Positions 26,231 through 62,111 of a stretch of DNA of 64,000 nt are shown here, piece after piece. How positions within the stretch are numbered: position 1 is the stretch's first letter; every line of letters begins with the position of its first letter. The notes beneath the pieces were generated by a model, which was not told the origin of the DNA, searched no databases, and was given only the letters and a program-made list of their open reading frames with translations. This DNA comes from Medicago truncatula (taxonomy: Eukaryota > Streptophyta > Magnoliopsida > Fabales > Fabaceae). The DNA lies in assembly GCF_003473485.1 (NCBI RefSeq), contig NC_053045.1:51378494-51442493 (forward strand), written 5' to 3'. The position numbers and the translations under genes were made by a program.

Positions 26231-26389
26231 TAAAAAAAACCTATTTAATATATAATAATATAGTCGGGTTAAGCTAGATCCATATACCCACAAAACAAAA
26301 CCCATCGTTCAACCTTAAACCCTTCAAAAAACACAACCTTTGTGTCTGCACAGCAATTTCATCTCCGAAACAAACACAACACTTTTACG

Positions 26390-32742: not shown

Positions 32743-35262
32743 TTTTTTTGTTTTTGAAATAGCATATTCAATTGATAAGCCAAGCACAAGATGTGCAAAT
32801 GGCATAATGATACAAGAGTATAACAGGCAAAACCTTGCAAAGGAATAAGGCACAGGCAGCCCACAAAACCAACAGGCGCAGCCTAACAGAAGCAAGGAAA
32901 AAAACAAAAGACAGGGAACCTAGCATAAAACAATTAGCAGCCTAAAAAGCCAAGCCTGGAAGAGAAAACCAAAGAAGTGATGGCACTTATTTCAGCCGAA
33001 CCAAATCCAAACAGCCGGGGCAACCGTGGCAACACCGTCACCGTCGTCTAAGGCACTCTCTCGGATTCCAACACCACTCGTAAAAGAAGCAAGAAACTAT
33101 CCTCAATCTACTCAAAGACCAACACCAAGACACTGCTTTAATGTTATCAACCACCTCATCAAAATTCTGGAATTGATTCTTAAAAATCCTCGCGTTTCTT
33201 TCCTTCCAAATCATCCAAATTGAGGCATGCCAAATCATCAAAAAAGCTTTCCGAAGCTTCCGAGAATTCACCTCACCATTCCAACAAGCATAATGGGAAT
33301 GCAGGTTTTGGGGAGTGATGAAATTAATTTCCAACCAATCTAGCACCTTACGCCAAATTAACAACGACACCTCACAATGCAAAAAGAGATGAGACGTTTT
33401 CTCCTCCATTTCACCACATAGCACACAAACACAAGGTTCCCTGGGAGCCAAAACATTCCGGTGCCTAAGATTAGTCCTTGTCGGAATACGGTCCCTCAAG
33501 GCCATCCAAGAAAAAGCCACGACTTTGGACGGAGCCGGACTCTTCCAAAGATTGGAAAACACCTCCTCCTCTAAACCACTCAACCCTTCTTGGTGGAGCA
33601 CACCCTCCTCCAAAACTCTATAAGAGGAGCGCACCGTATACTTACCACCCTCCTCCGGCAACCAATCCCACCTATCCTCTTCTCCACCCAACGTAACACC
33701 ATCAATGAGGTCTAGTAAGTTACCAATAAGGTTTCTCTCCCAAAGGAAAAGTTGTCTTCTCAAGTAAAATTCCAAAACACCTCACCCTCAATAATACTCC
33801 ACAAATCTCCGACTTTTGCCTCTTTAAATGACGATATAGAGAAGAGTCAGGGGAAGAGAAGAGCTAAAGATTGCTCACCTATCCACTTATCTTTCCAAAA
33901 ACTAGTACCCCTCTCATTAGACACCTTACGCACCACATTGTTGGAGAACCAATTCGCCCCCAAACCAACTTCCAACGTCTTCAATTCCTTCCACCACCCC
34001 GAGGCAAAGCGCGGCCATCTAGTCCCTTCCTCGGAAAAAATCATGGATGTATTCTCCCCATATTTCTCTCTCAACACCGTTTTCCAAAGGGGTAGCTCAT
34101 CTTGGAGCATACGCCACTTCCACTTTGCCATAAGACTCAAATTCACCATCTTAACATCCCTCACCCCTAAGCCTCCCTTACTCTTAGGTTGGCAAATTGT
34201 CTTCCACTTCACCCAACAAATTTTCCTTCCTCCCCCCACCCCTCCCCAAAGGAAGTCTCTTTGGATACGGGTTACCTTCTTCACCACTTTTGTCGGAATT
34301 TTCATGAAAGACAAGTAGAAAATAGGAATAGCATTCAAGACGGAATTGAGGAGAGTAATTCTTCCTCCAAGACTCACATATTTGAAACCCCAAGAATTAA
34401 GTCTATTCCGTAATTGCTCCAACATAGGTTCCCAAGTGGACAACTTTTTAGAGTTGGCTCCCACCGGTAACCCCAAGTAATTAAAAGGGACACTTCCTTC
34501 GCTACAATGCAAGAATCTACATGCCGCCTCCATGAATTGTCTCGAAACATTCACTCCGATGAGAGAGCTCTTGTGATAATTCACCTTCAACCCAGACGCC
34601 ATTTCAAATCCCCTCAACATAGCCTTTAGGGTCCAAAGATTCTCCACCGTAGGCTCCCCTATGCAAAGAGTATCGTCGACATATTGTAAGTGGGAAATCA
34701 CGGATCCTTCATGTTTATCTCAAAACCTTTGAATAAATTCTGTTTCATCGCGTTTTCCATCAAGCCACCAAAACCTTCCGCCACTAGAAGAAACAAGAAA
34801 AGTGCAAGAGGGTCTCCTTGTTTCAATCCCCTTTTAACATTAATTTCCTCCGTTGGGCTCCCATTAACTAAGATTGACATATTTCCGCCAAACACACAAG
34901 CTTTCATCCATCTAGCCCATTTGTCACACATCCCCACCCTTTTCATCATATACACCAAGAAACCCCAATCTACGGAGTCATATGCCTTCTCAAAGTCAAC
35001 CTTGAGAATCAAACACTCGCTTTTTGATTTCTTTGCCAAGTCCACCACCTCATTCACCACCAACACCCCATCCACCAAATGCCTCCCTTTTAAGAACGCC
35101 GATTGGGATCCGGAAATAATGGAATTCATAACCTTAGCAAGCCTTGTGGACAATACCTATGAGAGGATTTTATAGAGGCCACCTAGAAGAGAAATAGGGC
35201 GGAATTCCTTCAAAGATGACGGGGCTTTAACCTTTGGGATTAAGGTCACAAAGTAGGAGCAT
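32743..35262 (-). mobile_element. 5'-truncated L1-clade LINE inside a PPR gene
   Basis: Minus-strand remnant of a non-LTR retrotransposon. Read along it: FRPISLLGGLYKIL, then FLKGRHLVDGVLVVNE, then KVDFEKAYDSVDW and GLKQGDPLALFLF, then the catalytic QYVDDTLCIG box, then the C-terminal zinc region CVLCGEMEEKTSHLFLHC. The endonuclease half is absent. The surviving reading frame has a few breaks, among them a stop near 35175 and frame changes near 34700 and 33775-33850. The 3' end is the T-rich stretch at 32743-32755 on the plus strand (the tail). No target duplication, but about 195 bases of host gene were lost at the join. Confidence 0.93.
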
Positions 35263-35912
35263 CAGCTTTTTGGAATAATTTCGTGATTAGGGTTATGAAA
35301 GAGCTTCGAGATAGTCCCTTAAAGGCTTATAAGTTTTTTCATTGGGTTGGGAAGCAATCTGGTTATCAACAGAATACAGTGACTTATAATGCAGTTGCTA
35401 GAGTTCTTCCAAGGATGGAATCAATTGAGGAGTTTTGGAGTATTATTGAGGAGATGAAGAGTGTCGGTCATGAATTGGATCTTAATACTTACATTAAGAT
35501 ATCGAGGAAGCTTCAAAAGAATAAGATGATGGAGGATGCTGTCAAGCTTTATGAGCATATGATGGATAGTTCATATAAGCCTTCAGTTCTGGATTGCATT
35601 ATGCTTTTAAAGAGCATCTCTGCAAGCGATAAGCCGAATTTGGATTTAGTTTTCAGGGTAGCTAAGAAATTCGAGTCATCAGGGTATACTCTTTCCAAGG
35701 CAGTCTATGATGGTATTCATAGGTCTTTGACAAGTGCTGGGAAATTTGATGAAGCTGAAAAGATTGTCGAGACCATGAAAAATGATGGCTACGAGCCAGA
35801 TAGCATCACCTACAGTCAACTTATTTTCGGACTTTGTAAGACGGGGAGGTTTGAAGAAGCACTTAAGGCATTCGATGATATGAAAGCTAACAATATTCGG
35901 GTTAATATCAAG

Positions 35913-36440
35913 TCGACGAATATACATGTGTTCACCAACAAGCCGGCCCTAGTTTTCTCTCTCTAGGTTTTCTCTTACAATTCCTTCATTGAGGGGTAGT
36001 TTTGGGTCAATTTTTGATCTGAAATCACCCATCTTCATCTTTTTCTCTTTATTTCAATCTAAATAAGTGATTTTCACATATATCTAGGTTTTTTTCTTTG
36101 TAATTTCATCATCTAAGTGTGGTGATTTGTTGTTCGTCGTCTTGTGCGGCGTTGTTTGATTTTCCGTCTACGTGCGGTGTTCATTTGATTCATATTGAAA
36201 GATCGATTGTTCAATCAAAGATATGGGCGTCAACGTTGCAGATCCGAGACAATGAATATTCCGGTCACTTTAATTTCATCATATATTTTTGTAGGCATTA
36301 TGCCGTTATATGCTATTAATTTGAATGCTGTGAGTTTGTTCGCAGATTCATCCTTTACGTTCTTAACGGTGTTGAATGATGTAATCTCTCAATTTGAATG
36401 AATGAATATCATTTTATTTTTGTCAAAAAAATAAAATAAA
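35913..36440 (+). mobile_element. Poly-A-ended retroposon, about 528 bp
   Basis: It interrupts PPR copy 5. ATCAAG or TCAAG flanks both sides (35908-35912 and 36441-36445). It ends in gtcaaaaaaataaaataaa, like a reverse-transcribed RNA tail. The first 100 bases contain ctctctctaggttttctctt, reminiscent of a LINE leader, and no long open frame follows. Either a LINE with most of its body missing or an independent non-autonomous family. A degraded relative lies at 6035-6335. Confidence 0.65.
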
Positions 36441-41081: not shown

Positions 41082-44000
41082 CTACTCTCCATTGAGTAAA
41101 TCCATAACAACACGTTTGATGCTTCCATCGTTTTTCATCAGTAGCCTCCTGTTTGTTTCTTTGTCACGGAAACCCTGCATTAATACCCCATCAGTCATTA
41201 AACAAAAAAGCATCCACAATAACAATAAAAGCAATACATTCATTAGATTATGAAGCAGCAAAGTAGGTGATGATAGGGAGGAAATGGAGCACGGATTGTA
41301 TACCGTGACAGTGTGTTATTGGCACTTATGAAAGTTGATCTCATAAGGTAACTAGCAATTAAAGTTATAGACTAGAGTATGAAATTTTATTGATTTGGTC
41401 TCTTTGTTTTCGATCAGTTCTTCTAAAGAATTTGTATCATAACAGGTATAAAGAATATGCTTCCTATTTTACTTTTTGTTACAAGAGGGCATATTCAATA
41501 TGCTTCATGTTTTAACTGTGACAGAAGATGTAAAGGAGTTCTTAATGTTTAAATTTGCACAGGGTGAGCTATAGTGGATTGAGTCCTTTAGATTTACTTA
41601 ATTAATTATTTTAGCTGTTAAAAAAATAAACCAAATGAAAAAGAAGTCAAGAGAACAATTTACCATTTCGTGTAGCTCTTGAAGGAGAGGATCCCAATCA
41701 AGAACACCGCAGAGTTCATCAATTGACTGCTCTAGATTGTAATCTGTCATTCTCAGAACCTCTTTGTTTAAATCAACCTGCTTAAAACCCATAGCCTCAA
41801 GCTCTTTAAGGAGAGCCTCTTCCACAAGATCATTATCCATGCTTTGAGATGATGAAAGTGCATCCAAAGTTGAGGTTTGCTGATTGGAGTGAAAAGCTGG
41901 GGCTGTGCCAGAGAAAGAGGGAGCAGCTGGGGCTGTGCCAGAGGAAGAGGGAGCAGCTGGGGCTGTGCCAGAGAAAGGCGTAGCAGCTGGGGCTGTGCCA
42001 GAGAAAGGCGTAGCAGCTGGGGCTGTGCCAGAGAAAGAGGGAACAGCTGGGGCTGTGCCAGAGAAATCAATAATGGGGTAAGAAATAGATGAAGGAGACG
42101 CTGAAATTGCAGGGGCTGAGGCAGCAGGGCCAACAAAGCTAGTTTCATTTGTAGGAAATTCATTTCCCAATTCCTCCCATTGTTCCTTATCAACCATTTG
42201 ATTCACAGGTTCAGGGGGAGCATTGGGATTTTGAGGTTGATGAAAAACATCATCCTCAATAGGTTGAACATTGATATCTATAACCCGAGGCCCTTCAGAA
42301 CTACCAACACCAAGGGGAATATTCAAGTTCAGACCTTGCGAGCTATCATAAAATGAGTCCTTGAGAGATGCATCGACCTTCAAGTATGGAGGAGCGAAAG
42401 AATATTATTAAACAATTAGGAAGAAAACTGCGAGTCAAAAATTTATACAGGAAAAACAAAACATCATCAAAACTGTCATTCTACCTGTATAAGGACCCAA
42501 ACACGTTGGCCAAATTTATGTCCAGAGAGAGATGCCATCCTCCAGTATGATATGTATCTGCCAGGTAACTGGGGTGCTCTAAAATCAACTGCAATGTCAA
42601 GTTCTTTCTCCACGGATACACCGTCCTCAGGAACCTGGGATATTCAATCAAAATATCAGATAGGTTATTCAAAAGATTAATAGGCAAAATAAGCCTAGTA
42701 TCAGATAGGTTATTCAAAAGATTAGCAAACCTCTAAGTCAACAGAAAGGGAGTCACTTAATTTGTCACCTCCAATCCAAACAAGTTGAGTTCCCTTTGGC
42801 CACACTGAAGTGCCATTGTTGCGCATCCGCCAGATCTTTGTGAATGCAGTAGACGGAGCCATCATTGTTCCATCTATGACATTAACATCCAAAATGAACC
42901 GACTGTCTAGCTTAGACTTTGCATGCTTTGATAGAGGACCTGTTTTAAAAATAGGGGGTGGTATCTTTGGGTGTCTCTGCACCATAAAAAAAAAAAAGTA
43001 TAAATAAATATGTGTAAAGTCATAAAAAGAAGAAGATATAATTGAGTTCAAACGAGCTTACAAATTCTTTGGTATTCTGATATGAACATCTTGGGGAACG
43101 AAAAGATGCAGGACGGTCCATTCTGATATAATCAATCTGATTACCCATTTCATTGAAGCAAATGATGCATAGATCATAGTTTTCTTTTCTGCATAATGGA
43201 CAACAAAATTAATGAAACACCCCTAGAAGCATTTTACAATATCAAAATAAAAAGAAGTGTACTCACACTTTGGATTTGAAACGAGGTCCGGTTATTGGAT
43301 ACACTCCACAACCATCACAACGGACCCCCTTGTGAAACATGCCATTCAATGCATCAGAGTGAGCATGGCTCCTTTTAAATGGAGAAATACGAAAGTTTCC
43401 CAGAGGAGGTGGCATTGAATGAAGAGTATGTGTCCCAGAAAATGGACAGTCAATAGGAGCACTGAAACCTAAAGTAGGGTTCTTGGTTGCATTGTTATTT
43501 GGAAAGACAAAATTGCCCTTGTCATCAATAGACGATTTACCCTTGTCATCACTAACAGGGACTGCTGATGAAGGTGATACTCTATTTACGTTAGTCGATG
43601 AATAGGGATCACATGGAAGAACATTGAGATCAACTGGGGCAACTCCAGTATTTTTAGACTCCACCTGTCCACTGGCATCATTCTTTGAGCTTGTACCAAT
43701 TGCAACAGGTGGCCCCCAGTAATGGGATTTCACAGTAGATTGTCCAGTCTGAGGAATCGAATCAGTGGAATTAGAAGGCACTTGTCTCGAAGATGCAGGT
43801 TTTGAAAGTGACAAATTAGAAAGAGCCTCCTGTAGCACAGAATTTGAAACATTAGTTTTAACAACATTCCCAGGAGATCTTAAGGGGATGGCAGTTCCAC
43901 TAGATCTAGCATAGTCACCGGCAATGGGAGCAGAATCCACACATGGAGACTGCGGACCTTTTGCTTTAGGAGTGACAGATTCACTGGGAAGGCCGTTTTT

Positions 44001-45209
44001 TGAGCTTGTACCACTTGCAACGTGAGATTGGCCTTGAGGGTTTAGAATGGACTGTCCAATTTTGGAAATTGAATCAGCAATATTTGCTAGCACTGGATTT
44101 GAAGATGCAGCCTTGGAAAATGATGAATAAAGAGCCTCGCGTATTGGCTCCGGCAGAGCTTGCAAAGCATCAGCTTTAACAAAGTTCAGGAAAGGGTCTG
44201 AGACAGGAGGATATGACAAAGGGGTGGCACTCCCACTAGAGCCACCAGCATCAGATTTAGCACCAGATTGATTGATCATCTGGACATCAATTTTCAAGAA
44301 TTTTAATTGCTGTCTCATCACATCATGCAAATCATCATCATCCACAAGATTCACCAAGTCGCCATCCTCATCAACATATCTCAGAGTTAGATTCACATCA
44401 GCAGGGAAATTGTAAATAGAACATATCTTAGACCTCAACCCAACCATGTTAAGATCCAACCGATTGTTCTCATCCACACGAACATTGAAGCGCCTAAGGG
44501 CATCTCCATATTTCGCCTGTACAACAATAATAAGTGACATGATATGAATTCAGGCCATTTTATACGTAAAAAAATGTAAAAAAATAAAATAAAATAATAT
44601 TACTTATTAGTAAAGTCTTGCAAAATGAATTCCAATTAAATGTGGATAGACATATAGAAACTGATCACATATCACACCAATAAAACCTACTGGAACCTTC
44701 AGTCTTCAATCGAAGATATACCCCTAATAAACTAATATTGAACCATAATAATCCATATCCTCATTCATGAAAGTTAATCTATATTCATGAGATAAGGTAC
44801 TCCTAAACAAAACCTTCAATTAGGAGTGTGTGAGAAAACAGAAACCTATAATAAATCCGATTATCATGTTAGGAGTAAAATTATAATTCATGAAAACCCA
44901 ACATGCATCACAATTCACCAGTTTCAGTTCCGATTATCAAAACATAAGCAAAATTTTTAAGCGATTAACATAAATTCTCATTCAAAGCAATCCAATTATA
45001 AAAAAAATCGACCAACAATTGAAAACAATATAATAAATATCAGACACGAAATCAAAACCGTCACAAACACAACGATTAATTTGAATTCCACATGGAAAAA
45101 CCAGAACCAGTGCATGACGCAACGAAAACAAAATAATGAAACAAAAATTGGAAAAAGAAAGGGAAAAATTGAGATCGATCGGTACCTTGATAACGAGAGA
45201 AGAATCCAT
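41082..45209 (-). CDS. NBR1: NBR1 selective-autophagy cargo receptor
   Basis: Seven GT-AG exons: 45209-45186, 44516-43267, 43188-43062, 42976-42731, 42634-42485, 42377-41664 and 41174-41082, giving 867 residues. NBR1 binds ubiquitinated or aggregated cargo and carries it to the vacuole by docking on ATG8. Domains: PB1 at about 9-95, with a basic K-Y-G-D start and the acidic YVDEDGDLVNLVDDDDL motif, so able to self-polymerise; ZZ zinc finger at about 403-450 (CDGC, CIIC); four-tryptophan NBR1 domain at about 480-597; two UBA domains at about 780-826 and 831-867. The ATG8-binding motif is WDPL at 827-830, between the UBA domains as in other plant NBR1 proteins. Odd: six copies of a 10-residue FSGTAPAATP repeat at 704-763. 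The exon-1 ATG gives MDSSLVIK, shared with the paralogs at 51-60 kb. Confidence 0.96.
41895..42070 (-). repeat. In-frame 30-bp minisatellite in NBR1 exon 6
   Basis: About six near-identical 30-base units (core gctggggctgtgccagag on the plus strand), each coding FSGTAPAATP or a close variant. The unit is a multiple of three, so copy number can change without shifting the frame. It lies in the linker before the UBA domains. Confidence 0.95.
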
Positions 45210-45387
45210 GGCTACGAAGAAGGAAAGCGAAGGAGGATTGAAAGAAAAAGCGTAGCGATTAAGCGAGAGAGGAAGAGCGATGAAACCCTAACCCTAACAG
45301 AATGAAAATTGTAATTCGGATGAGAAATTGAGAGAGTTATAAAAGAAGAAGCTTTAGCGTACCGGTGAGCCGCTATTAACGCTAAAT

Positions 45388-45420
45388 GAAGCGGAGAGTG
45401 AGATATATACTGCTCTCTTT
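45388..45420 (-). promoter_or_regulatory. NBR1 core promoter block shared with the PB1-only genes
   Basis: On the minus strand a TATATAT box (45409-45403) is followed by CTCACTCTCCGCTTCA. The same CTCT-GCTTC block recurs upstream of all three PB1-only genes, at about 52178, 58002 and 60279, and TA-rich boxes lie beside each. Confidence 0.6.
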
Positions 45421-45879
45421 GCCTTTGGGAACAAGAAATTTTCTTTTTTTGATTTTTTTTTCTTCATTTATTTATATTACTTCTTCGCAAAGTTTAGCTG
45501 TAGGACCCGCATATAGATATTATCCATTCAACTATATGATATTTATTTATTTTCCTTAATCCGTAAGTATTTGATTTTGTATATTGCATCCGACATAAAT
45601 ATGAGACCATTTTTGAATAAAAAATTGTCTCTTTTGATCGGATAATTTTGGTATTTTTAAGTACATTAATTAATTTTTTACCAAAACATCTTTATTTATT
45701 TTATACTAGTTTAGAGCTCCGGCGTTGTCCGGGTTAGATATTAAATAAGTTTGTATGCACGAATATATGTGTATTAGCTTGAATTTAGTTAAATTTACAG
45801 TTATAATAATATCTTAAAAATAAATATAAATGGTGAGATGAATATCCAATGTAAGAATAAAAAGTGTAACACAATCAAT

Positions 45880-49151: not shown

Positions 49152-50107
49152 GAGTTTTTCTATTCACACCCTATATATTTCTGGTTACACCCAGTTTTTT
49201 TAAAAAGTTTTTGATAATACCAAAATTGTCCTTTTATATAAATTTTCTTAAAATCTTATTTTCATTCATTGTCACTCTAAAATTTCACTCTCTTTCACCC
49301 ATCAACGATCAAACAATCCTGATGTTCAATTAATCTCTATGGAAGATTAAAGAGTGAATCAAAACATCTTTCATTCATACTCGATTGCATATAAATAAGT
49401 GAATTTTTTCTTCTTTTCCAATAGCGCTGGTTTCAATTTTCTTCTTTTTGTTCAACTGCACTATACGACAGTTTTAGTTTTACATTGTTGAGGTTAACAT
49501 AATCTACTTAAACTTAGTTTACATAACCTACTTAAACTGAGTTTAAGTATGTACACTTAAACTGAGTTTACATGACCTACTTAAACTAAGGTTACATGTA
49601 CATACTTAAACTGATATTACGTATAATCATTGAACAAGATTGAACTTTTAGATGTATACTTAAACTTAGTTTAAGTAGGTCATGTAAACTCAGTTTAAGT
49701 AGGTCATCTAAACTAAGCTTAAGTAGATTACATGTTTTTATGACCTACTTAAACTGAGTTTAAGTATGTACACTTAAACTTAGTTTACATGACCTACTTA
49801 AAATAAGTTTACATGTACATATTTAAACTGAGATTACGTAGGATCATTGAACAAGGTTGAACTTTTAAATGCACACTTAAACTCGGTTTACATGACCTAC
49901 TTAAACTGAGTTTAAGTATGTACACTTAAACTCAGTTTACATGACCTACTGAAACTAAATTTACATGACCTACTTAAACTGAAGAGGGATTTTAGGGTGT
50001 AACCAAGAAAAAAGGAAGATACTTTTTGAAAATTAAATTTTATGGAAGGGTAATTTTGTCATTTTGGGGTGCAACCATGATTAAACAGGGTGTAATTATA
50101 AAAACTC
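49152..50107. mobile_element. Mutator-like TIR element with a palindromic satellite inside
   Basis: The left end GAGTTTTTCTATTCACACCC pairs with the right end (ggtgtaattataaaaactc). TAATTTTTC stands on both sides (49143-49151 and 50108-50116), an exact 9-bp target duplication. No transposase. Half of the 956 bases are tandem repeats (49490-49985). Confidence 0.82.
49490..49985. repeat. Tandem array of about 23-bp units with palindromic cores
   Basis: Units of the type ACTTAAACTGAGTTTACATG, some turned into ACTTAAACTGAGTTTAAGT, which is almost its own complement. About twenty units, in both orientations, separated by gacctact or atgtac spacers. A longer block including gtttaagtatgtacacttaa repeats at 49541, 49758 and 49910. 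Confidence 0.85.
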
Positions 50108-50178: not shown

Positions 50179-50357
50179 AACCAAGTTGCTTGGGCTCCAG
50201 TGGCAAGAAGCTCATTCCAAGGACGTATTTGGGGAATACTGGATTCGATTCCCAGGAGGAAGAACGCTTGGCCAGTGCGCATGCCTCTACGGACGAGCCG
50301 GATTAGTCGTCCACCTTTGATGAGTCGGAAACCGTTGCGAAAGTCAAAAAAAAAAAA
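50179..50357 (+). repeat. Full-length tRNA-derived SINE with 14-bp target duplication
   Basis: CTTCCATTACACAT stands at 50165-50178 and 50358-50371. Between them: an A-box-like stretch (GGCTCCAGTGGCAAGAAGCT), a B box GGATTCGATTCCC, a body with gagccggattagtcg, and a poly-A tail. The same family, shortened, is at 59946. Confidence 0.92.
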
Positions 50358-50371
50358 CTTCCATTACACAT

Positions 50372-51165
50372 TAAGACAAGGGTGTGATAAAAAGAAGAGG
50401 GAGTAGATTAAGAATCAACCATGCAACGCGATCAATTTTGGCTGCAGAAAGTTACTCCTTTTGATTGTAGCACATACTTTTCACATTCCAACTTTAAACA
50501 AATACCAGTACAAGGAAGTAAACAAGTGGGAAGGATTTTTGAGGGTTTTTAAAGAGAATCGTTGAAGTTGCAGGGGAAATACAAATTAGTCATTATCATC
50601 ATAAAAACCATTTTTTTGGGTCCAATGCAGGACTTAGGAACTATGATTCTTTCATCACAGAAACTTCATATTATTTTCATTACACAAGTATGCTACTTCT
50701 AATGCAGAGGATATAAGTTAAGTTAAGATGGTAGACCAATAACAGTTTCATCATTATAACAACCAACTCAATTTCCTGCGTTAAAATCATTATTTTGTAT
50801 CAGTAACCTAGTATTCCTTTTACTATATCTTTGCTTATAAACAAAAAACATAGTCAAACAACACCTAATTCAAACAATGATCAAATCAGTAGCATGTATC
50901 TCATAAAGCATAAAATAAAGTAATAAAGATAACTAACTATCCAAACATAAAAACTAAGACAAATTCAAAGGAACCATTAACCCGCTAAACATTTATTTGC
51001 CTAGTAGTTTTTCATTGATACTTTCAGAGTTCAGACCATCCCACTCTCTTGATGTGATGATAGACTTGATAAGGAAGTTGGACACTGCTACTCAATTTTT
51101 ATAGACCCTATCTAAACTAACCTTTCCTAACGATGGGTCACGCTGGCTGATAGACCGCATCTAAA
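50372..51165. other. Downstream flank of PB1-only gene 1
   Basis: No gene seen. Blocks from here recur after the other PB1-only genes: tccaatgcaggacttaggaa near 55260, gatggtagaccaataac near 58868, and tatctcataaagcataaaat near 56583 and 58922. So each duplication unit included 3' flank. Confidence 0.65.
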
Positions 51166-52091
51166 CTAACCTTTCTTAATGACAGGTTGGCGGGGAGGAT
51201 GGCCATACAACCAACCTTTACTAATGGGTCGGCCGATGGATCGGATATTTGATTTACTGAACACAACCCGGCCACAAAAAGTAGAACCATAATATAACAC
51301 TTCTTCCTTCTGTAGTATTTTCCACACAGATTTACTGATCATTTTTCTCAATTGAAAGAATCCATTGCCATATTGTACTTCAATTCTCAAGTATTTTAAT
51401 TGCTGCCTCATCATGTCATGCAAATCATCATCATCTACAAGATTCACCAAGTCGCCCTCTTCATCAACATATCTCAAACTGAAATTTGCATTATCAGTAA
51501 AATTAAAATCAGACCGTATCTTAGCCCTCAGCTCAACCATCTTAAGATCCATTCGATTATTCTCATCCACACTAACATTGAAGCGCTTGAAGGTATTTTC
51601 AAATTTCACCTGTACAGAGTTCACAAGTGATATGATATGAAGTCCGAAAAACATAGCAATTTTGTTTAGACTTAAATGAACTTTTGGATCTATTTTAACT
51701 AGCTTAACCCACTTTTGGTCTCTCCATTTTACCATGAACAAGATTTTAGCCCCAATTTCAAAATACAGGTTGCTCCCAATTTGAATTTGAAAAGTGCTTA
51801 CAAAAAAGTATATTTGCGACCAAAAATCACCATTTATTGGGACAAAAATCAACATTTTTTGGGTTTAAATCCAAAGTCGCAACAATATGTGAAAATTATA
51901 TGTACCAAATATTTGGATTTTGAAATCTTACTTTTAGTTAAATTTGAAGAAATGACAATAGGCATCCCACATTTCAGTAGGGGAAAACAAATCATTCATG
52001 CAATGCAATTATTAAAAAATCACAACAAATTGAAAAAAAGAAGACAGAAATGAGAAAGATAAAGGACCTTTATCACCAGTTGAGATTCCAT
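51166..52091 (-). CDS. PB1-only NBR1 paralog 1
   Basis: Two exons, 52091-52068 and 51609-51166, giving 155 residues. Exon 1 codes MESQLVIK, as in NBR1, with the same 24-nt length and phase-0 junction. Exon 2 codes a PB1 domain: basic VKFENTFKRF at the start and the acidic YVDEEGDLVNLVDDDDL motif, so both faces needed for head-to-tail PB1 contacts are present. After LRIEV the sequence leaves NBR1 and enters a tail shared with the other two copies (KEEVLYYGST, FSKSN, SKGWLYG-PPR). No ZZ, UBA or ATG8-binding motif. Possible role: capping or mixing with NBR1 polymers (inference). Its promoter is split by a TIR element at 52212. Confidence 0.78.
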
Positions 52092-52211
52092 AGCTGAAAG
52101 AACGAAAGCGATGAAGGACGAAATGAAAAGCAGTGAAACACTAAGGTAACCGTTGGTCGCCATACACACTCACTCTCTGAAGCCGAGACTGACATACATA
52201 TATATATATAT

Positions 52212-53092
52212 GGGATGTATCAAATGAGAGGAAGTGTTATAATGAGAGGGTGAGAGGACCAAATAATAGCCATTAGATTTAAGTCATCGGTTGAGATAGT
52301 GTTTAGTTAATATGCACATGTTTCCTTTTCATTTAGTTTCACGGTTTCCCCACGCGCCATTCATTTCTTCGTCTCTTTCAACTTGCTCTCTAATCTCTAT
52401 AACTCTGTCCATGTTCTGGATGTTAAAGCATGATTTTATTTATTTTTAAATCTGTAGAATCAAACGTAGAGATATACAAATTCATCTCACATCTGGTTCA
52501 TATAAAATAAAATCTTCACTGTACTCTTGAAATTGAAATTGAAATTTCAAGGCTTCAGATCTATGTCCTATGATATGCCCTTTGAAGCTATGGATAATTG
52601 TTTTTGTTTAGGAAGCTTCACGTTTATAGTTCAAAGGAAGCTTCTTCATGTTTATGGTGGAAGACCAAGTTGATAAGGAGATTTATCCAATTTCATTTAC
52701 ACAAATTATGATTAATTTAAGAAACATATTTTTTTTAGTTAGAGAGTTAATTTGAGAGATAAATATGGATTTTCAATTTTGATAGAATGAAATTATCAAA
52801 ACCATCAAAAAGGGAACTTTAATCTAGCGTGTTGGTTATTAGTCTAGATTGTTGGGAGGAAAGCACACAAGAAAATCAAAGAACAGGAACATAAGCTAAC
52901 GCAAGTTTCTGAGAGTGAGAGAGAGATGAAGGAGGAAGAAGAAAGGGCAGGCAGCAAGCACGTAGACCAACCACAAAAGTCACGTGCATTGTTTAAGTGA
53001 ACCTTTTAATTTGGACTGTTCATTTTCATCCAAGGGTCATAATCTATTCCTCCCACCTTCTCATTATAACACTTCCTCTCATTTGATACATC

Positions 53093-53095
<3 letters not shown>
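52212..53095. mobile_element. TIR element inserted in the TATA region of PB1-only gene 1
   Basis: The ends GGGATGTATCAAATGAGAGG and the complementary right end match for about 110 bases. TATATATAT flanks both sides, so the target was a TA run. It starts 120 bases before the start codon of the gene at 52091. Beyond it, atactcgctttgcgactgtc resembles NBR1 DNA upstream of its TATA box, so the element split an ancestral promoter. Termini resemble those of the 20201 element. No transposase. Confidence 0.82.
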
Positions 53096-53123
<28 letters not shown>

Positions 53124-56100
53124 CTCGCTTTGCGACTGTCTTTGTCAATAAAATAGCGTAACCCAATTATTCGCGCTAAATAGTTTTTTGCTAAACAAAC
53201 TTAGCACAATTTTATACTAAATCTATTTTAAAATGAACTTGTTTAAAATTTCTAAACATATATTAATAAATGTAATGATTAAATAAAAGAAAGAAAAATG
53301 GTTTCCACGAGCATACCTCAGCTAGAAGATAATGCATTGCATTGTTATATGCAGGACTTAAGTTTAAACCACAAATAACTCACTTATTTATCTTAAAAAG
53401 TGAATTTTAATTTCTAGACTACTTGACAAACACGCTATTTCCTTCTTAACTAGTTTGTTTTTTCATTAAAGTAAAAGTAATATTCTGGAAGGAGTGTGCA
53501 TAGTAGAAATAAAAAGTACAAAATGTGAGTTGTTTAATAGTTGCATAATTATTTACCATTGAAACAAAATGTGTGAGTTAGCAAATCAATTAATTTTGAG
53601 TGGATTGTAAACTTGGGTAAAATTATGGTCATATTAGGAAAATGACAAAATATTGTTGTCACAAGGGAGAGGGAGTGAGCGCAGAACCCCCTTTGTTTGT
53701 TTTTGCTTGTCACTTGTTTCTCATTTCTCAACTACTTTAGTTTATAACGGTATGAATAGAATGTTGTTTACATGTCATAATTTGTTGATTATCTTCGTAT
53801 GACATGAAAGTCATATATGTTCCAACATCATTACACACATTTTTCCTTTCCTACGCTTCTTCCATAACAGATACAAAGATGCCAATATCATCATTGGACA
53901 ACAACACCAGGTTGAAATTCCAAAGATAAATTGAGAGCATTGTATGCGTTGGTGTGGAAATATTACAGATTCTTAGTTGATAGGTTTTAAAGGTACAAAC
54001 ATGTAGTTTACAATATTAGAAACACGTGAGTGCAAATAAAAAGTACAAGAAATGACAAATATATACACGAAGGCTGCAAAAAGTAAGAAATAAAGATAAA
54101 AAAGATGTGGTCATTATAAATAGAAATGAATTACATACATTATTCATTTTAACATCTAATAAGATGTTTTCTTACGAGGCGAATGCGTTATCTACCAGGC
54201 AAATTTTTATGGAATAGAAACGAGCTTCTTTGCTTGGATTTTGATTCTACTCTATACAGAAAAGAAAATAAACTAACTCAAATGATGCATATGTAACGTG
54301 TCGAATAACTTCTTTCCATGTAGTCTTCTTCGGCAAGTTTCTTCTTATACTTTGAATTTGGAATGTCGAATAATTATAAACAATTGGTGTAAAGACTTCT
54401 TTGACACAATTTGTATGGAGTTCTAAAAAGTTATGCATTTCAAATTTCGAATGATCTTGGATTTACTTATTTCGAACTTCCATGGATTAGTCTTCAAAAA
54501 ATGATCTTCGAGCTCTGGTATTCGAATTTTGACATTTTGAGGAAAGTTACAAAATTTCTTCATTATTAGGAGTATCATATTCCTTTGGGTATATTTCGTT
54601 CATAAAATAAAATAAATTCGCTCGAAAATATCTATTCGATGTATGCAATGGCAAGATAAGTTTGTATTGTAATACAAGTGATATGCAATGGCAAAGCTTG
54701 TGGCTTTGTTACAAGAATTTTATTGGAGGAGTTTGATGGCTTACGTCTCAAAGAACTTCAAATTCTAGAACAACAACTTCATTTGGCACTCAAACACAAT
54801 GGATGATTTAAATAGAATCTCTAAGAAACAAAATGGCAAATAAACCCTAAAGACAATTAGAAAATAGTTACAATGAGAGAAATAACATAAAAAAAAGTAG
54901 GAAACTACCCTAGCTTAAAGGAGGTGGTTCGTCGCAGCCGTTTTCACCATTGTGACCATCTTCAACCACAACAATTCGATCTCATTTTCAAGGAGGTGAA
55001 GTAAACGAGTGCTGAAAGAGGGTGCATGATCGAGACACTTGTGTTGTGATTATTTGGTCGTGGAGGAAAAGAGAAAAGAGGGGAATGAAGCGAGACTTGT
55101 GGGAAGAGAAAATAGTTTTAGATTGCAAAAGATTAAATTCAAAACGACACGTTTGTCCCTCTTATAAAGTCGACTTAACGAAACTTTCCCTCCCACAGTG
55201 TCCTGTATTTTGTTGCAAAATTGTGTTCCAATATCATTTCTGATTTTACCTTTTTTTTGCGTCCAATGCAAGACTTGGGAACTGTAATTTTTTCATCACA
55301 GAAACTTCATGCTATTTTCGTTACACAAGTATGCTATATATTCTATCCCAGTTGTTCCAGGCTTAGCAACCAACCCAAATTCTTTAGAGTATTAGAGATT
55401 TGAGAAGCTACTTATCACAAAAAATGTAGAAGATGTTTAAAGTTTTTGATAGTATCTGAAAATTTGTAATTCTTATATATTTGTTTCATGTTTTACGGCT
55501 CGGTGCTCCTTTGGTCACAAATAAAGCAGATGACGGACTAAATTTATGGATTTGTATATAAACCATTAATAACTTCTACGATGCTCTCATGTTTTACAGC
55601 TCATTGCTCATCTGATGAAGTATTCTTAAATATTGACTTCAAAAGGAGATAAAAAAAATCTTCACAGAAATTGAGTTCAACAAATTGTCATCCAATTTAC
55701 TACTTGTAATCGCCTTAGTTTCAATGCAGGGTTTAGTGCAAATGCTAAATGCAACATCTTTTCTAATAACACCAGTAGCAAAGAAATCGAAAGATATAGA
55801 TCTATAATTTATAGACCAATAAGAACTAAGAATGTTAGCAATATGTAACCTAATCCTGTTTTCCCGATAAGTGTAGCAACACCATTTAGTTTAAACCTGC
55901 AGAGGTGTCTCAATATACCTATCCAAATATGTTAATCATCGTAAGGATTGACTTCCTGCTGCAAAAGATGATCTATGCCAATAATTGTACTCAACTACTA
56001 GCCATTTCTGTTGCAAATGCATGCAACTTGACTCTAGATACCTTAATTGCACTTTATTCAATATAATTACAATTTAATCATTTTTCCTTTAATTACTCAT

Positions 56101-56842
56101 GTGCTTATTTAAGATCACACCCTCATCATCATGGATAGCTCTTCTTGCTCTCTTGTTGCTATTTTCCAGTTACATTCCGGTTGGTTTTATATATATATAT
56201 ATATATGGTAGTTTTTTTCTTCTAAATTTTCTATATAATCAAAGCAGAATGTAGATAAGTTACTAGAAGAATGGTTTCTGAGTTCAGATCAATGTGAAAA
56301 GCTTGCATCATCTGATCCATAGCAAAAAATGTCATTTTCGGTGACAGCAACAAAAGAAAACGGTACAATTTCATCACATTAACGTACAATTTCATCACAT
56401 TAGAAGCATCAAGTTTAAAGAAAACGGTAAAAGGAGGGACTTTTCGTAATCATAACAGCCAACTTAAATTTCCTGGGTAAAATCATTATTTTGTTTAGTA
56501 CCTTGTATTCCTTTTACTATATCTTTGCTTTAAAATAAAAAGCTTCAAACAGGCTCAATCAACATTGATCAAATTAACACCATGTATCTCATAAAGCATA
56601 AAATAAAATATGTTGATGTGTCAATGCACAAAAACATCCAATTAACCATCCAAACATAAAAACTAAGACAAATTCAAAGGAAACAATAATCTGCTAGACA
56701 CTTATTTGTCTAATAGTTTTTCATTGATACTTTCAGAGTTCAGATCATCCCACTCTCTTGATGATGATAGACTTGATAAGGAAGTTGGACACTGCAACTC
56801 TATTTTGATAGACTTTATAGACCTTATCTAAACTAACCTTTC
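53096..56842. other. Intergenic between PB1-only genes 1 and 2
   Basis: No gene seen. A block at 55256-55340 repeats 50625-50700, and 56440-56830 repeats 50750-51130. The stretch 54170-55250 has only short open frames without recognisable domains. A TA run lies near 56192. Confidence 0.55.
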
Positions 56843-57961
56843 CTAACGACGGGTTGGGCGGGGAGGATAGCCATACAACCAACCTTTACTAACAGATCGG
56901 CTGGGTACGCTGGATCGGACATTTGATTTACTGAAGATAATCCCTGAACACAACCCGGCCACAAAAGTAGAACCATAATATAATACTTCTTCCTTTCCAA
57001 TTATTTTCCAGAGAGATTTACCGATCATTTTTCTCCATTGAGAGAATTCTAATAGAAAGAATTCATTGCCATGTACTTCAATTCTCAAGGATTTTAACTG
57101 CTGCCTCATCACGTCATGCAAATCATTATCATCCACAAGATTCACCAAGTCGCCATCTTCATCAACATATTTCAGACTGAAATTTGCATCCGCATTAAAA
57201 TTGAAATTAGACCGTATCTTAGCCCTCAACTCAACCATGTCAAGATTCATTACATTATTCTCATCCACACGAACATTAAAGCGCTTGAAGGTATTTCCAA
57301 ATTTCACCTATATAGATATAACAAGTGATATGTTATGAAGTCCGACAAACAACATGATATTATTTAGGCTTAAATACACTTTTAACACTCTATTTCATCT
57401 AGCTTAATGCACATGTGACAGCTTTATTTTACTTGAAAAAAATTTAACCACCATTTCAAAACCTGAGTTGCCCCAGTTTTGAATTTGAAGAGAGCATACA
57501 AAAAAATTATCACTTTTTTGCAACAAAATATCATACCTCTTTGGGGTCAAAACTTTGGGTTAGGAACAAAATTGCCATAATGTGTAAAATTGGAGACAAC
57601 AAACACGAATTTTAAAATGGGAATTAATATTGTTTTAGGGGCATAATTTGATGAAATGACAATAGGTATCTAATTAACATGCAATGCATCTCTCTCATAC
57701 TCTTTCTCCCTCCGGTTGTCTCAAAATGATTGTACAAATATCATTAATTTAATCCCTATTAGACCTAAAAATTCAAATTAGTTGCAAAAAACGTAACGAA
57801 CAAAGAATGATCAATTTAATTTTGATCACATAAGCAATACCTCAATGATCAGTGCATGAAGCAGCTAGAAAGAGAAATGAATTGAAAGCAAAGTTATCAA
57901 ATAGAAATTAGAAAGAAAGGAGAAATTGAGATCAGGAACTTTATCACCAGATCAGATCCCA
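56843..57961 (-). CDS. PB1-only NBR1 paralog 2, splice donor altered
   Basis: Exon 1 begins at 57961 (MGSDLVIK) and exon 2 spans 57307-56843. The PB1 domain is intact: VKFGNTFKRF and YVDEDGDLVNLVDDNDL. The tail is VLYYGSTFVAGLCSGIIFSK, then SKGWLYGYPPRPTRR. Odd: at the exon 1 end the other copies read AAAG|GT, here AAAGTT, so one G of the junction is gone. Splicing as AAA|GTT would give an early stop. Using the upstream CTG|GTGATA would keep the frame and give MGSDL joined to VKFGN (about 159 residues). It could thus be a working gene with a moved donor or an early pseudogene. Same strand, flanks and promoter block as its neighbours. Confidence 0.62.
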
Positions 57962-59174
57962 TAGCTGACGACAGAACGAAAAGCTTTACACGCTCACTCT
58001 CTGAAGCGGAGACCGAGTTCCATAAATACTGCAAGCAGTGCTATATAATGCAAAATTTTCATTCATGAACAAAGCTAATGCTTACATGTAACAATTTTAA
58101 AAGAACCATTTGAAAATTCAAAATAGAATTAAAACTCCACATTTTGTGGAATTAGGAGGATGTGGTGTGTGAAATGGTCAAGTAGAGAGTTTGTCTTTGG
58201 GATTTTCTATTATGCTTACTTGTACATGTATAGATGTCAATTTTAGCATATATCATAATTAAATAATTTTGTCTTTGAGCACACGTTAGTTGGTAGAGAG
58301 TCATAACATTATATATGCAGCGGTAAGAGTTCGAATTCCAGGATACACGGTTAATTTCTAACCACTAGTCTACTTTACAAAATAATTTTAGTCTCTATGC
58401 ATTGTTGTTATCGGTGAGCTTAAAATGGAATCCATTTGTATATGCAGGAATAGTGCAAAGACACTCATTCTGAAAATGAGACCTTTGTTAGGGTCTTTGA
58501 AAAAGAACATTTAAGATATGCTCAATGTATGAGACTTGGAGTAACACCATATAGGTGATATGCCATACGACACAAGGGTTGCATGGGGATCTTAAGTTCA
58601 CAAAGAAGAAGCACCGTTAACCTAAAAGGAAGGTTTTCATCACATGGAAGACTACATAGGAGATGTTATTGTCATGTTAAAAATTAGTAGGGGTGTGAGT
58701 GAAATTTCAACCTACCTCTGAGCAGATCAATGTAATTTTCCCTTATTAATATCATCATATTATTAACTATTTGCATTTGTTTCTCTTGAAGATTAATTAC
58801 ATTTTGTCCAGGTCACAAACTAATAGTCTTTTTGGCCATAAAGCAGAGAATATAAGTTGATTTGAGATGGTAGACCAATAACGGTTGAACTTGAAGTGAA
58901 CATTAATCAAATCAATACTATGTATCTCATAAAGCATAAAATAAAATTATATAAAAACAAAGATATGTTGATGTCTCAAAGCACAAGAGCATCCAATTAA
59001 CTAGCCAAACTTAATAACAGACAAATTCTAAGGCAACATTAATAATCTCCTAAACATTTTTTTTTTCTAATAGTTTTTTTGTTACTTTCAGACCAGCAAA
59101 CTCTATTGAGTGATGATAGACTTGATAAGAAGGATGGAAACTGCAACTTCGATTGACACTATCTAAACCAACGA
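57962..59174. other. Intergenic between PB1-only genes 2 and 3
   Basis: It holds the promoter block of gene 2 (GAAGCGGAGACCGAG near 58002, TA box near 58042) and a SINE-like sequence at 58265-58385. From about 58840 it repeats the 3' flank of genes 1 and 2. No gene seen. Confidence 0.55.
58265..58385 (+). repeat. tRNA-derived SINE, diverged
   Basis: GAGCACACGTTAGTTGGTAG as A box, GTAAGAGTTCGAATTCCA as B box, then the tail-like actagtctac and an A-rich end. Layout like the family-B copy at 9345. Confidence 0.5.
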
Positions 59175-60222
59175 TTACTTTGATGAAGTTGATCCTCCGG
59201 ATGTGTGAACCTTTGGGCCGGATTCCGAGTTTCCAAAAACAAAAAACAAACCTTTGCTAACATGCTGGACGGGTTGGACAATCTGTTCTTTTGGTTTGCA
59301 GTAAATAATCGAACATAATCCAATCCACGACACAAAAAGAGAACCATACCAGAAAGCATCTTTGCTCAGTATCATCCCAGGGGAAGATTTGTTGATGGTA
59401 TTTCTCCATTGAGATAATTTCAGTGGAAACAATCCACTCCCATGTACATCGATTCTCAAGGATTTCAATTGTTGTTTCATCATGTCATTCAAATCATTAT
59501 CATCCACAAGATTCACCTGCTCGCCATCTTCATCAACATAGCTCAGAATGAAGTTTGCATTAGCAGTAAAATTGAAAACAGAACATATCTTATCCCTCAA
59601 CCCAACCATGTTAAGGTCCATGTGATTATTGTCATCCATACAAACACCGATCCGTCTGAAGGTATTTCCATATTTCACCTGAACAGAAATAACAAGTAAC
59701 ATGATTCCACAAATCCAATTCTTAACATACCCTAAAGTTCTAAAAGAATAATGAAATAGGTCAGAAGTATTGGTGCAGCAGAAGTTTCTTGCCGTGCAAG
59801 ATACAAATGGAATTAAGAAAAAAGAGAAAGTGATGCAAAAATTGTTGCAATGTGTATTCTCATTAAGCAAATGAAAAGTAATTACAACTTATTTATAGCA
59901 ATTAATATTGTACATGTAACTAACGTGCTAGCTAAGGAGTGCATGTCCTTCCAAGAACGTACCCGGGGAATACCGGGTTCGATTCCCAGGGGGAACAACG
60001 CTTGGCCAGTGCACATTTCTCTACGCATGAGCCGGATTAGTCGCCCACCAGTGGTGGGTCGGAGACCGGTGCGAAAGTATAAAAAAAAAACGGAGTGCAT
60101 GCAAAGTGGTAATAAAAAGACTATAAAGAAGAGAAACTAATTGAAAGCATAATAATAAAACGAAAATTAGAAAGAAAGTGGAAAATTGAGATTGGAACCT
60201 TGATCACCAAAGAAGAAACCAT
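59175..60222 (-). CDS. PB1-only NBR1 paralog 3
   Basis: Two exons, 60222-60199 (MVSSLVIK) and 59678-59175, giving 175 residues. The most diverged of the three, and closer to NBR1 in keeping VKYGNTFRR and DLNMVGLRDKIC. The acidic motif is YVDEDGEQVNLVDDNDL, with one site changed. The tail keeps the pattern of the others (LSQWRN, WYGSLFVSWIGLCSIIYCK, VSKG) but ends differently. The tail has a 17-residue hydrophobic stretch that might sit in or on a membrane. GT-AG junctions are good and a TATA-like box is at 60293. The intron contains a SINE. No cargo or ATG8-binding part, so it cannot act as NBR1 does; PB1 pairing with NBR1 is the likely role (inference). Confidence 0.78.
59946..60091 (+). repeat. 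5'-truncated SINE in an intron
   Basis: Same family as 50179: GGGTTCGATTCCCAG, gagccggattagtcgcccac and a poly-A tail. GGAGTGCATG stands on both sides (59936-59945 and 60092-60101), a 10-bp target duplication. The A-box end is missing. It lies in the intron of PB1-only gene 3, antisense to it. Confidence 0.88.
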
Positions 60223-60761
60223 AGCTAAGAAGGATGAAAGGAAGAGCAGCAATAAGACGATAAACACACTGACTCTGTGAAGCAGAGAGTGGTATATAAT
60301 GCTCTGTTTGGCTTTTCCAACAAGAAATTCTTTTCGTACTTTTTATATATTTTTTTTTTCTATAGAGTGAAGCAATTTAGTTTCTTATATTTTTCTTCTG
60401 TTGGCTTTGGGACCAAGAAAGTTCTTTTCTGTTGATAGTATTACTTCTTGCTTAGGCTAGCGTGCGCAATAGGCCATTTCAGCATGGAACCATCCATCAA
60501 CAAAAAAAAAAACATCTATAATTATGTCTATATTTATATCTATATTTGCACTGGATTTTTTCATTTACATTATTACACCTTTATTTAAACTATTTTATCA
60601 TTCCGTAATATTATTATTTAAATTATCAATTAAAAAATTAACTAATCCCAATAAAATATAAACAATACACAACGGTAGGAGAAACAATCCAAAATAATAC
60701 GAACACTATTTTCTAGAGGAATAATATAAACAATATTGGACGCTTAAAAAAAAACTTATTT

Positions 60762-62111
60762 GTCTTATGGTGGTCGCTTGATTCTCCTTAAGTCTGTCCC
60801 ATCTTCACTGCCTTTCTTTTTTCAGAGCTCCCACAGGTATAATCTCCTCCATTAAATCTATTTTAATTAATTTTTTTTGGGGTGGGGGTGAGGATCATAG
60901 AAAAATTGCATGGGTGGACTGGAACACTATTTGTATGAATAAGGGGGTTGGTGGTTTGGGGGTAAGGAGATTACAAGAGTTTAATATTGCTCTTCTTGAT
61001 AAATGGTGTTGGAGGTGTTTAATTAGTCGACAGGGAGGGCTTGTGGTATAAAGTGTTGTATTCCCGTTATGAGGAACACAGAGGGCGGTTAAGGGAGGGT
61101 GGCGCGACGGGGTCAGCTTGGTGGAGGGAGATTGTAAAAATTTAAAATGGCATAGGTGTGGAGGGTTGTAGTTGGTTTGAAGAAAGTGTAACAAAACGTT
61201 TAGGTAATGGCTTAAATACTTTCTTTTGGTCGGATTGTTGGGTGGGGACAAAGTCATTTATGGAGAGATTTAGGAGACTTTTTGACTTGTCGATTCATAA
61301 GGATTTGTCGGTGGGAGAGATGTTCGCATTAGGTTGGGATGAACATGGGGAGGCTTGGAGGTGGAGACGCCGCTTATTAGCTTGGGAGGAGGAGTTGGTA
61401 GTGGAGATTAGGAACTTGCTTACTAACGTTATATTGCAGGATAATCAATCAGATGTATGGCTTTGGCGACCTAATATTGGTGATGGTTACACCGTGAGTG
61501 GTGTGTATCAAATGCTCGTGTGGCAGAAGATACATAACCACGACGTTGTTTCGGATGCTCCTTGGCATAAGAGTGTTCCTTTGAAAGTTTCTATTTGCGC
61601 GTGGCGTCTTCTCCACAATAGACCACATAATTATTCATTATCCTATTTTTGGTGATCTTTGGCAACAAATTAAAACTTGAATTGGTGTGTTTTCCGTGGA
61701 TCCTCATCAGGTGTTGGATCATTATTATCAATTTGTTTTCTCTTCAGCTAGCCATGCTCCAAGAAAGTCTTTCCTTCATTTGGTTTGGCTTTGTGGTATT
61801 TGGGTTCTTTGGAACGAAAGAAATCAAAGATTATTTGTCAATACAGCAAAAACAATTGCACAATTACTTGAGAAAGTTATGATTACTTCTCTTAAATGGT
61901 TGAAAGCAAAAAATGTGTGCTTTCCTTTTGGTTACCATATGTGGTGGTAGCGTCTCCTTACTTATTTGGGGATTGATTGATGTAATTTTTCTTTGTTGTC
62001 TTTTGTGGTTTGATTGGAACTATTTGTAATTTTGTTTTGTTTCCTTTAGCACTACTTGTGTTAGGGATCAAAACTTTTTGTTAATATATCTCATTTTGAT
62101 TTGTTAAAAAA
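60762..62111 (+). mobile_element. 5'-truncated L1-clade LINE, 3' part
   Basis: Plus strand. Reading along: a GGR-LILLKSV-SSLP block from 60767, FFWGGG and HRKIAWVDWNTIC in shifted frames, then an open frame 61158-61655 with TFFWSDCWVGTKSFMERFRR and LWRPNIGDGYTVSGVYQML, then WLCGIWVLWNERNQRLF near the end. The C-terminal zinc region is lost in an internal deletion near 61625. The catalytic domain is absent, and several frame breaks lie between 60850 and 61150. The tail is a poly-A at 62106-62120. An A-run plus cttattt flanks both ends. Confidence 0.85.

Follow-up and report, generated by a model that had tools for sequence, protein, structure and literature searches.

Three PB1-only paralogues of NBR1 lie beside the full-length receptor gene in Medicago truncatula

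Three short copies of the autophagy receptor gene NBR1, here called A, B and C, adjoin the full-length gene in Medicago truncatula, all on the same strand. Are they genes whose products could act on the receptor, or are they what is left of a duplication? Coordinates are positions within the window, a 64,000-nt stretch of NC_053045.1, and every feature lies on its minus strand unless indicated. NBR1 itself is intact (41082 to 45209). Its seven exons yield a spliced coding sequence of 2,604 nt with a single terminal stop, for a protein of 867 aa, and Pfam found PB1, FW (PF16158) and NBR1-type UBA (PF24932) domains in them. Exon 1 (45186 to 45209) encodes MDSSLVIK, and the PB1 part of exon 2 comprises 79 codons (44280 to 44516).

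The 24-nt first exon is kept in all three copies. It encodes MESQLVIK in A (52068 to 52091, donor GTCCTT), MGSDLVIK in B (57939 to 57962, boundary devoid of a GT donor) and MVSSLVIK in C (60199 to 60222, donor GTTCCA). The second exons, stop codons included, span 51166 to 51609 in A, 56843 to 57307 in B and 59175 to 59678 in C; each is made of PB1 (51373 to 51609, 57071 to 57307 and 59442 to 59678, respectively) and a tail. The conceptual products have 155 (A), 162 (B, if spliced) and 175 (C) residues, with PB1 as the sole recognized domain. The amino acid identities to the PB1 of NBR1 are 67%, 68% and 63% for A, B and C, with E-values of 7e-25, 4e-33 and 2e-31, and Pfam scored PB1 in the three second exons at 40.1, 42.2 and 32.4 bits (cut-off 23.6). 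Judged by these alignments, homology to NBR1 is far beyond chance.

When the 867-aa protein was used as a tblastn query (E up to 10), its matches to the copies were confined to residues 4 to 87. Pfam detected no domain besides PB1 in the second exons at E up to 1, and ZZ, FW (four-tryptophan), UBA and LIR were not found in any copy with full-length NBR1 tblastn and Pfam. A first, sequence-only reading of this DNA had described three same-strand copies that retain exon 1 and PB1 and lack the other parts of NBR1, and both points were borne out. Outside NBR1, the only further tblastn match was a weak one at 13455 (E of 0.13). A scan of viral_contigs for relatives returned 20 pattern matches, with no relative among them.

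According to the available text of PMC6978347, residues 1 to 94 of Arabidopsis NBR1 (AtNBR1) form filaments by themselves via charged interface residues, and the seven residues that we compared were taken from there. K8 of M. truncatula NBR1 is the equivalent of AtNBR1 K11, the numbering of the AtNBR1 chain being shifted by 3, as seen with copy C. Charge is kept at seven of seven positions in every copy (basic at 8, 16 and 17; acidic at 57, 59, 61 and 70), confirming the claim that both PB1 faces are retained. With an N-terminal location and both basic and OPCA acidic residues present, the three PB1 domains are of type AB. They match the AtNBR1 PB1 structure 6TGN with E-values of 1.5e-19 (A), 2.3e-19 (B) and 1.1e-21 (C), and they share their domain type and interface charges with the Arabidopsis structures (6TGN, 6TGP and 6TGS). 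Unlike AtNBR1, in which PB1 is the N-terminal part of a full receptor, A and B carry K for R19, so that the double arginine becomes K-R, and have F at the position of Y14. An AlphaFold model of the copy C exon, computed from a 4-sequence alignment in which the first GTG was read as M, had a mean pLDDT of 39 and was uninformative either way. Together, these comparisons support A, B and C being NBR1-derived paralogues in which PB1 is the only recognized domain and both interaction faces are kept.

A filament cap requires a PB1 domain missing one face. The suggestion that the copies cap NBR1 filaments was thus a poor fit, and we rejected capping as the default since both charged faces are present in all copies. 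Their retention suggests instead that the copies should co-polymerize with NBR1 and dilute it. In the accessible part of PMC9582228, human NBR1 and p62 are PB1 relatives that differ in their sets of domains and assemble together; the PB1 of human NBR1 has no tandem arginine and is monomeric, whereas the copies keep both charged faces, so that capping is not expected. The same part reports that AtNBR1 bodies and the autophagic degradation of AtNBR1 require a polymeric PB1. Since both faces are kept, binding to other plant PB1 proteins (kinase, Phox, NLP or ARF types) in place of NBR1 is conceivable, and K in A and B at R19, a main NBR1 contact, would be in line with it. However, among PB1 domains with solved structures, that of AtNBR1 is by far the closest to the copies in sequence, a likeness that does not bear directly on binding, and we regard such partners as very improbable.

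All three copies have an intron at the position of NBR1 intron 1, with NBR1-like sequence beside the acceptor. Because this intron is kept and upstream sequence is common to the copies and NBR1, an origin as processed (retro) copies was rejected. The region upstream of copy C (60278 to 60360), a putative core promoter, resembles that of NBR1 (45387 to 45465; 75.3% over 85 columns, E of 3.4e-11), and a TATATA motif is visible by eye near 60293 to 60300. GT and AG are present and the frame is intact in A and C. Only in these two is the phase-0 junction, earlier ascribed to all three, intact: exon 1 of B ends AAAG/TTCCTG, with no GT donor. An overlapping AA/GT site in B would lead to an immediate stop, and a TAG stands in frame before exon 2, as read from the sequence. 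An in-frame GTGATA/GTGATC site also lies 9 nt inside exon 1 of the copies. An element of about 0.9 kb with 65-bp terminal inverted repeats (52194 to 53112, no strand; arms 93.8% identical) sits about 100 bp upstream of the ATG of copy A. The NBR1-derived copies are real, but calling them three genes was too strong, because B lacks its splice donor and because of the element near A. In our best reading, C is the best surviving gene candidate; A is doubtful as a gene, and B is probably decaying and becoming a pseudogene. At least one copy could make a small protein that joins NBR1 polymers, and the evidence for A, B and C as maintained genes is mixed.

It may be that all three copies are now debris: truncated products of tandem duplication that either never had a function or have since lost it, and whose PB1 frames are open by chance. 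The 87 codons of exon 1 plus PB1 contain neither indels nor stops in A, B and C. In neutral simulations, which counted an indel of any length as failure and excluded three ambiguous sites from the branch counts, all three copies stayed intact with a probability of 0.15 under substitutions only, 0.0057 at 0.05 indels per substitution and 0.00035 at 0.1; at 0.2, none of 20,000 runs left all three intact. For single copies the result at 0.1 indels per substitution was weaker (A, 0.026; B, 0.059; C, 0.036). The simulated probability that all three copies kept all seven interface charges was about 0.03. For comparison, 47 gaps against 133 substitutions separate the non-coding stretches of A and B, a summed and alignment-dependent count. 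By simulation, the PB1 frames look better preserved than expected of unselected DNA, and their joint intactness, rare at 0.05 or more indels per substitution, argues against debris.

Substitution patterns point the other way. Over 79 codons, omega was 0.60 on the copy branches versus 0.40 for NBR1, and fixing it at 1 on the copy branches cost only 1.16 lnL units, so that it is not distinguishable from 1. A dN/dS near 1 had been named beforehand as a mark of gene debris; the outcome, an estimate of about 0.6 that is not significantly lower than 1, is ambiguous. For the B-NBR1 PB1 pair, one of six, two compensating 2-nt gaps placed by the aligner were replaced by an ungapped codon alignment. PB1 differences between A and B fall 10/6/8 on the three codon positions, with no excess at third positions. 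The A-B divergence of PB1 (0.109) is similar to that of the tail (0.113), putative intron 2 (0.107) and the 3' flank (0.073 to 0.128), as debris would have it, and lower than that of the poorly aligned intron 1 (0.254). The lost donor of B and the element upstream of A also favor debris, to which we give a substantial probability that stays clearly under one-half. Overall, the evidence for selection is mixed, with intact frames set against an omega of about 0.6.

Within the tail, frame 0 is open in A, B and C alike, whereas each of the other two sense frames has 1 to 5 stops, a further point against debris. In a near-ungapped alignment of the B and C tails, codon-position differences were 20/23/28, the same residue occupied 23 of 61 codons, and dN/dS was about 0.8 (0.52/0.67), which again favors debris. 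A gapped alignment has 43 mismatches and 9 gaps, and frame keeping in the tail is therefore alignment-dependent. Same-frame protein similarity was highest in frame 0 for B-C (100 versus at most 82), but an antisense frame outscored frame 0 for A-B (159 versus 155) and frame 2 did so for A-C (54 versus 45). In a tail simulation, the probability of no stop was 0.051; the mean of 52 mismatches was below the 71 of the near-ungapped alignment, and its score comparison (0.84), unmatched in divergence, was not used. The tail was rejected as conserved coding sequence on the near-neutral B-C dN/dS, the alignment-dependent frame and the higher scores of other frames in A-B and A-C.

The tail of copy C contains a hydrophobic stretch, FWYGSLFVSWIGLCSIIYC (59298 to 59354), with a counterpart in B (56930 to 56986). 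In B and C, such a tail could tether PB1 to a membrane and bring NBR1 polymers to an organelle, and the tail frame is open in all three copies. Its 19-residue Kyte-Doolittle maxima of 1.49 in C and 1.47 in B speak for this docking, although such values are marginal for a membrane-spanning segment; the stretch is absent from A (0.56), the B-C tail evolves near-neutrally, the C tail has no PDB match, and Pfam recognizes nothing beyond PB1. We consider membrane docking very improbable.

Downstream, a block common to the three copies (A, 50980 to 51084; B, 56687 to 56791; C, 59036 to 59140) may be UTR or a third exon. A possible intron before it would begin at AAAG/GT (A, 51216; B, 56884; C, 59252) and measure 131, 92 and 111 nt in A, B and C. 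The would-be acceptor CAG precedes 51084, 56791 and 59140, by eye with no pyrimidine tract. Read in the frame that follows on from exon 2, the block stays open for another 29 codons in A, against just 14 and 11 in B and C, respectively; a different frame gives B and C roughly 30 open codons. A third exon is possible, and we did not adopt it.

Similarity to NBR1 stops at residue 87 in all three copies. This common breakpoint suggests a single truncation followed by tandem duplication as the likely origin, and the divergences among the copies fit ((A,B),C). A truncated duplicate made of exon 1, the PB1 part of exon 2 and a new tail would have arisen beside NBR1 and been copied in tandem, with C branching off first and A and B splitting later. 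The ancestral product would have been a short type AB PB1 protein whose frame was constrained for most of its history. Its PB1 would most likely insert into the head-to-tail PB1 polymer of NBR1, as a plant microProtein might. Because the copies lack LIR, UBA and FW, the polymer would then carry its ATG8- and cargo-binding sites at lower density. That the locus holds such an NBR1-derived, PB1-only gene, long functional and microProtein-like, now best represented by C, with A doubtful and B probably decaying, is our tentative account, to which we assign slightly less than an even chance. The stronger proposal, a receptor-linked family of PB1 microProteins in tandem beside NBR1 (C with an NBR1-like promoter region) that co-polymerizes with it and sets the ATG8- and cargo-site density of filaments as a stoichiometric brake on autophagy, we consider unlikely.

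If the account holds, a short PB1 partner would exert endogenous dominant-negative control over NBR1 polymer composition, the microProtein idea would extend to a selective-autophagy receptor, and the copies would offer a ready means of probing how cargo uptake depends on filament valency. Should they instead be debris, the locus is a commonplace remnant of tandem duplication. The earlier remark that no description of such a locus is known agrees with the literature searched, as far as its accessible texts go: they contain no NBR1-derived PB1-only gene, most subscription papers being outside that search, and in the available parts of two legume ATG surveys NBR1 appears solely in the reference lists.

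The closest known kinds are plant microProteins and the plant 'Kinase-derived' PB1 family. As defined in the available part of PMC9162457, microProteins are small proteins with one domain, related to a larger protein whose other domains they presumably lost, and act as dominant negatives. Like LITTLE ZIPPER with HD-ZIPIII, as far as those texts describe them, A, B and C are conceptually small and pair one interaction domain with a larger multidomain parent. Here, in contrast, the parent is a polymerizing autophagy receptor, and the copies stand in tandem beside it and carry an added tail, and a dominant-negative action of theirs is a prediction. The 'Kinase-derived' family, in the accessible portion of PMC7051960, has PB1 as its only known domain, is kinase-PB1-like and apparently arose by duplication in angiosperm ancestors. 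The copies likewise have PB1 as their only known domain and come from duplication, but they derive from NBR1 and not from a kinase PB1, and lie in tandem beside their parent. They are presumably younger than that family; their PB1 dS to NBR1 is 0.36 to 0.46 (NG86).

The NBR1 gene (41082-45209, minus strand), coding for the full-length selective-autophagy receptor, is intact, with seven exons and a 2604-nt coding sequence that specifies 867 residues without internal stops. Pfam assigned PB1 to exon 2, and FW (PF16158) and the NBR1-type C-terminal UBA (PF24932) to later exons; from the translation, we take a ZZ domain and a WDPL motif to be present as well. A short tandem repeat of SGTAPA units (41893-42081) precedes the UBA. 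Three shortened copies follow beyond NBR1, also on the minus strand, and are named by increasing distance A (exon 1, 52068-52091; exon 2, 51166-51609), B (57939-57962; 56843-57307) and C (60199-60222; 59175-59678). Each has a 24-nt exon 1 ending with LVIK and an exon 2 starting with PB1. The sequence-only reading that they keep PB1 and lack the other NBR1 parts was borne out: whole NBR1 protein matched the copies by tblastn only at residues 4-87, and PB1 was the sole Pfam domain in all three second exons, with no Pfam match outside it. Between NBR1 and copy A, 49493-49982 holds a short-repeat array of ACTTAAACTGAGTTTACATGACCT-like units, direct and inverted.

Every copy leaves the NBR1 sequence at an identical residue, contains an intron where NBR1 has its first, and carries a tail (the part of the second exon after PB1) that resembles those of the other copies but is unlike NBR1. 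A 3' flank of approximately 1.06 kb is common to A and B (77.7%), and one of approximately 0.8 kb to B and C (71.5%). Together these features point to a single truncation and fusion event, with tandem duplication afterwards. Judging from PB1 synonymous divergence (NG86; A-B 0.16, C versus A or B 0.35 to 0.40, copies versus NBR1 0.36 to 0.46), the A/B split is the most recent, and the truncation dates from roughly the same time as the split of C.

In the PB1 filament of Arabidopsis NBR1 (AtNBR1), the chief contacts link R19-R20 to D60, D62, D64 and D73, with K11 assisting; mutants without the double arginine did not bind, and residues 1 to 94 polymerize by themselves, as reported (PMC6978347). 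K11 corresponds to the final codon of exon 1 (numbering offset of three), and thus the tiny exon matters. Its lysine is present in every copy, the double arginine is K-R in A and B and R-R in C, and the acidic residues read D-E-D-D (A), D-D-D-D (B) and D-D-E-D (C), so that interface charge is retained at 7 of 7 positions in each. Longitudinal contacts involve two residues: N28, which all copies retain, and Y14, which only C keeps, A and B having F instead. A PB1 domain with both faces should join and lengthen the polymer; a cap requires the loss of one face. Of the roles suggested earlier for the copies, diluting NBR1 filaments is therefore likelier than capping them, as all copies retain both faces.

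The conserved interface and the self-polymerization of AtNBR1 1-94 suggest that the ancestral product most likely diluted the NBR1 polymer in the manner of a microProtein. The ancestral short gene would have supplied a PB1-only partner co-polymerizing with NBR1, and LIR, UBA and FW density would be lowered in the co-polymer. A precedent for interference, in a different system, is truncated human NBR1 without LIR and UBA, which keeps its p62 interaction and, when overexpressed, delays p62 turnover, as reported (PMC9582228). MicroProteins are described as small one-domain proteins related to larger ones, believed to originate through the loss of domains and to be dominant negative in action (PMC9162457), and a plant PB1 family of kinase origin with no further known domain has also been described (PMC7051960). 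No NBR1-derived PB1-only gene was found among the matches listed in the open-licence literature.

A close rival to dilution is that all three copies are plain gene debris, and it has to account for exon 1 plus PB1 being free of indels and stops in A, B and C. We ran neutral simulations on parsimony branch counts (AB 12, A 16, B 10 and C 26 substitutions, 3 ambiguous sites excluded), counting an indel of whatever length as a failure. Without indels, all three copies stayed intact at a frequency of 0.15; with 0.05, 0.1 and 0.2 indels for each substitution, the figures were 0.0057, 0.00035 and 0 of 20,000 runs, respectively. At 0.1, single copies stayed intact at 0.026 (A), 0.059 (B) and 0.036 (C). 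Non-coding A-B stretches showed 133 substitutions versus 47 gaps, a figure that depends on the alignment. In the simulations, all interface charges were retained in all three copies at a frequency of approximately 0.03. The dN/dS test proposed for debris was less decisive: in a codon model, omega on the copy branches was 0.60, below 1 yet without significance (lnL -661.88 versus -663.04 at 1). Omega was 0.53 for the whole tree (-662.09 versus -664.70), 0.64 for the A and B tips (-661.98 versus -662.39) and 0.51 for C (-662.09 versus -662.88), and only the whole tree differed significantly from 1 by the usual chi-square reading, done by hand. A-B differences fell 10/6/8 by codon position, and A-B divergence in PB1 (0.109) equaled the divergence seen in the tail, in putative intron 2 and in the 3' flank (0.073 to 0.128) and was below that of the poorly aligned intron 1 (0.254). 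The frame has thus been retained, but amino-acid constraint on the copies is weak or relaxed, most of all in A and B.

The splice junction claimed for all three genes held for A and C, with GT and AG in place, but not for B, whose exon 1 boundary lacks GT. By direct reading, an overlapping AA|GT site in B leads to an immediate stop, and an in-frame TAG lies just before exon 2. Splicing of B is still conceivable through GTGATA, a candidate donor 9 nt within exon 1, read from the sequence alone, which would keep the frame and lose residues VIK. Copy B probably does not act in dilution today. Copy A, with a conceptual product of 155 aa, possibly does; its tail has lost the hydrophobic part through indels. 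About 100 bp upstream of its ATG lies an inverted-repeat element of approximately 0.9 kb (52194-53112) with TA-rich ends and 65-bp terminal inverted repeats 93.8% alike; related stretches occur at 20172-20288 and 22924-23006. Copy C, with a conceptual product of 175 aa, may act in this role. Its upstream region (60278-60360) resembles that of NBR1 (45387-45465; 75.3% over 85 columns, E 3.4e-11) and contains, by eye, a TATATA motif.

Each of the three tails is open in frame 0, and the remaining two sense frames carry 1 to 5 stops apiece. A borderline hydrophobic stretch occurs in the tails of B and C, and the C tail had no PDB match. Protein similarity favored frame 0 in B-C, not in A-B or A-C; B-C tail dN/dS was approximately 0.8, in an uncertain alignment. 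The tail may be coding, with little constraint visible. Past the open frame, two blocks of 26 nt (50894-50919 in A) and 19 nt (51055-51073 in A) are identical in all copies. B-C divergence in a 105-nt block containing the latter is 0.175, below PB1 synonymous divergence (0.35), and this block could represent conserved 3' UTR sequence, gene conversion or a third exon.

Elsewhere, a 145-bp repeat pair (50212-50356 and 59946-60090, 84% alike), presumably SINE-like, has one member within intron 1 of copy C. Beyond copy C, the plus strand carries pieces of a presumably LINE-type reading frame (60782-61950). Four large repeated open frames (13272-15203, 17812-19797, 26273-28306 and 32176-35966) we take to encode pentatricopeptide-repeat proteins, the last broken by a presumably LINE-like reverse-transcriptase stretch (33038-35156).
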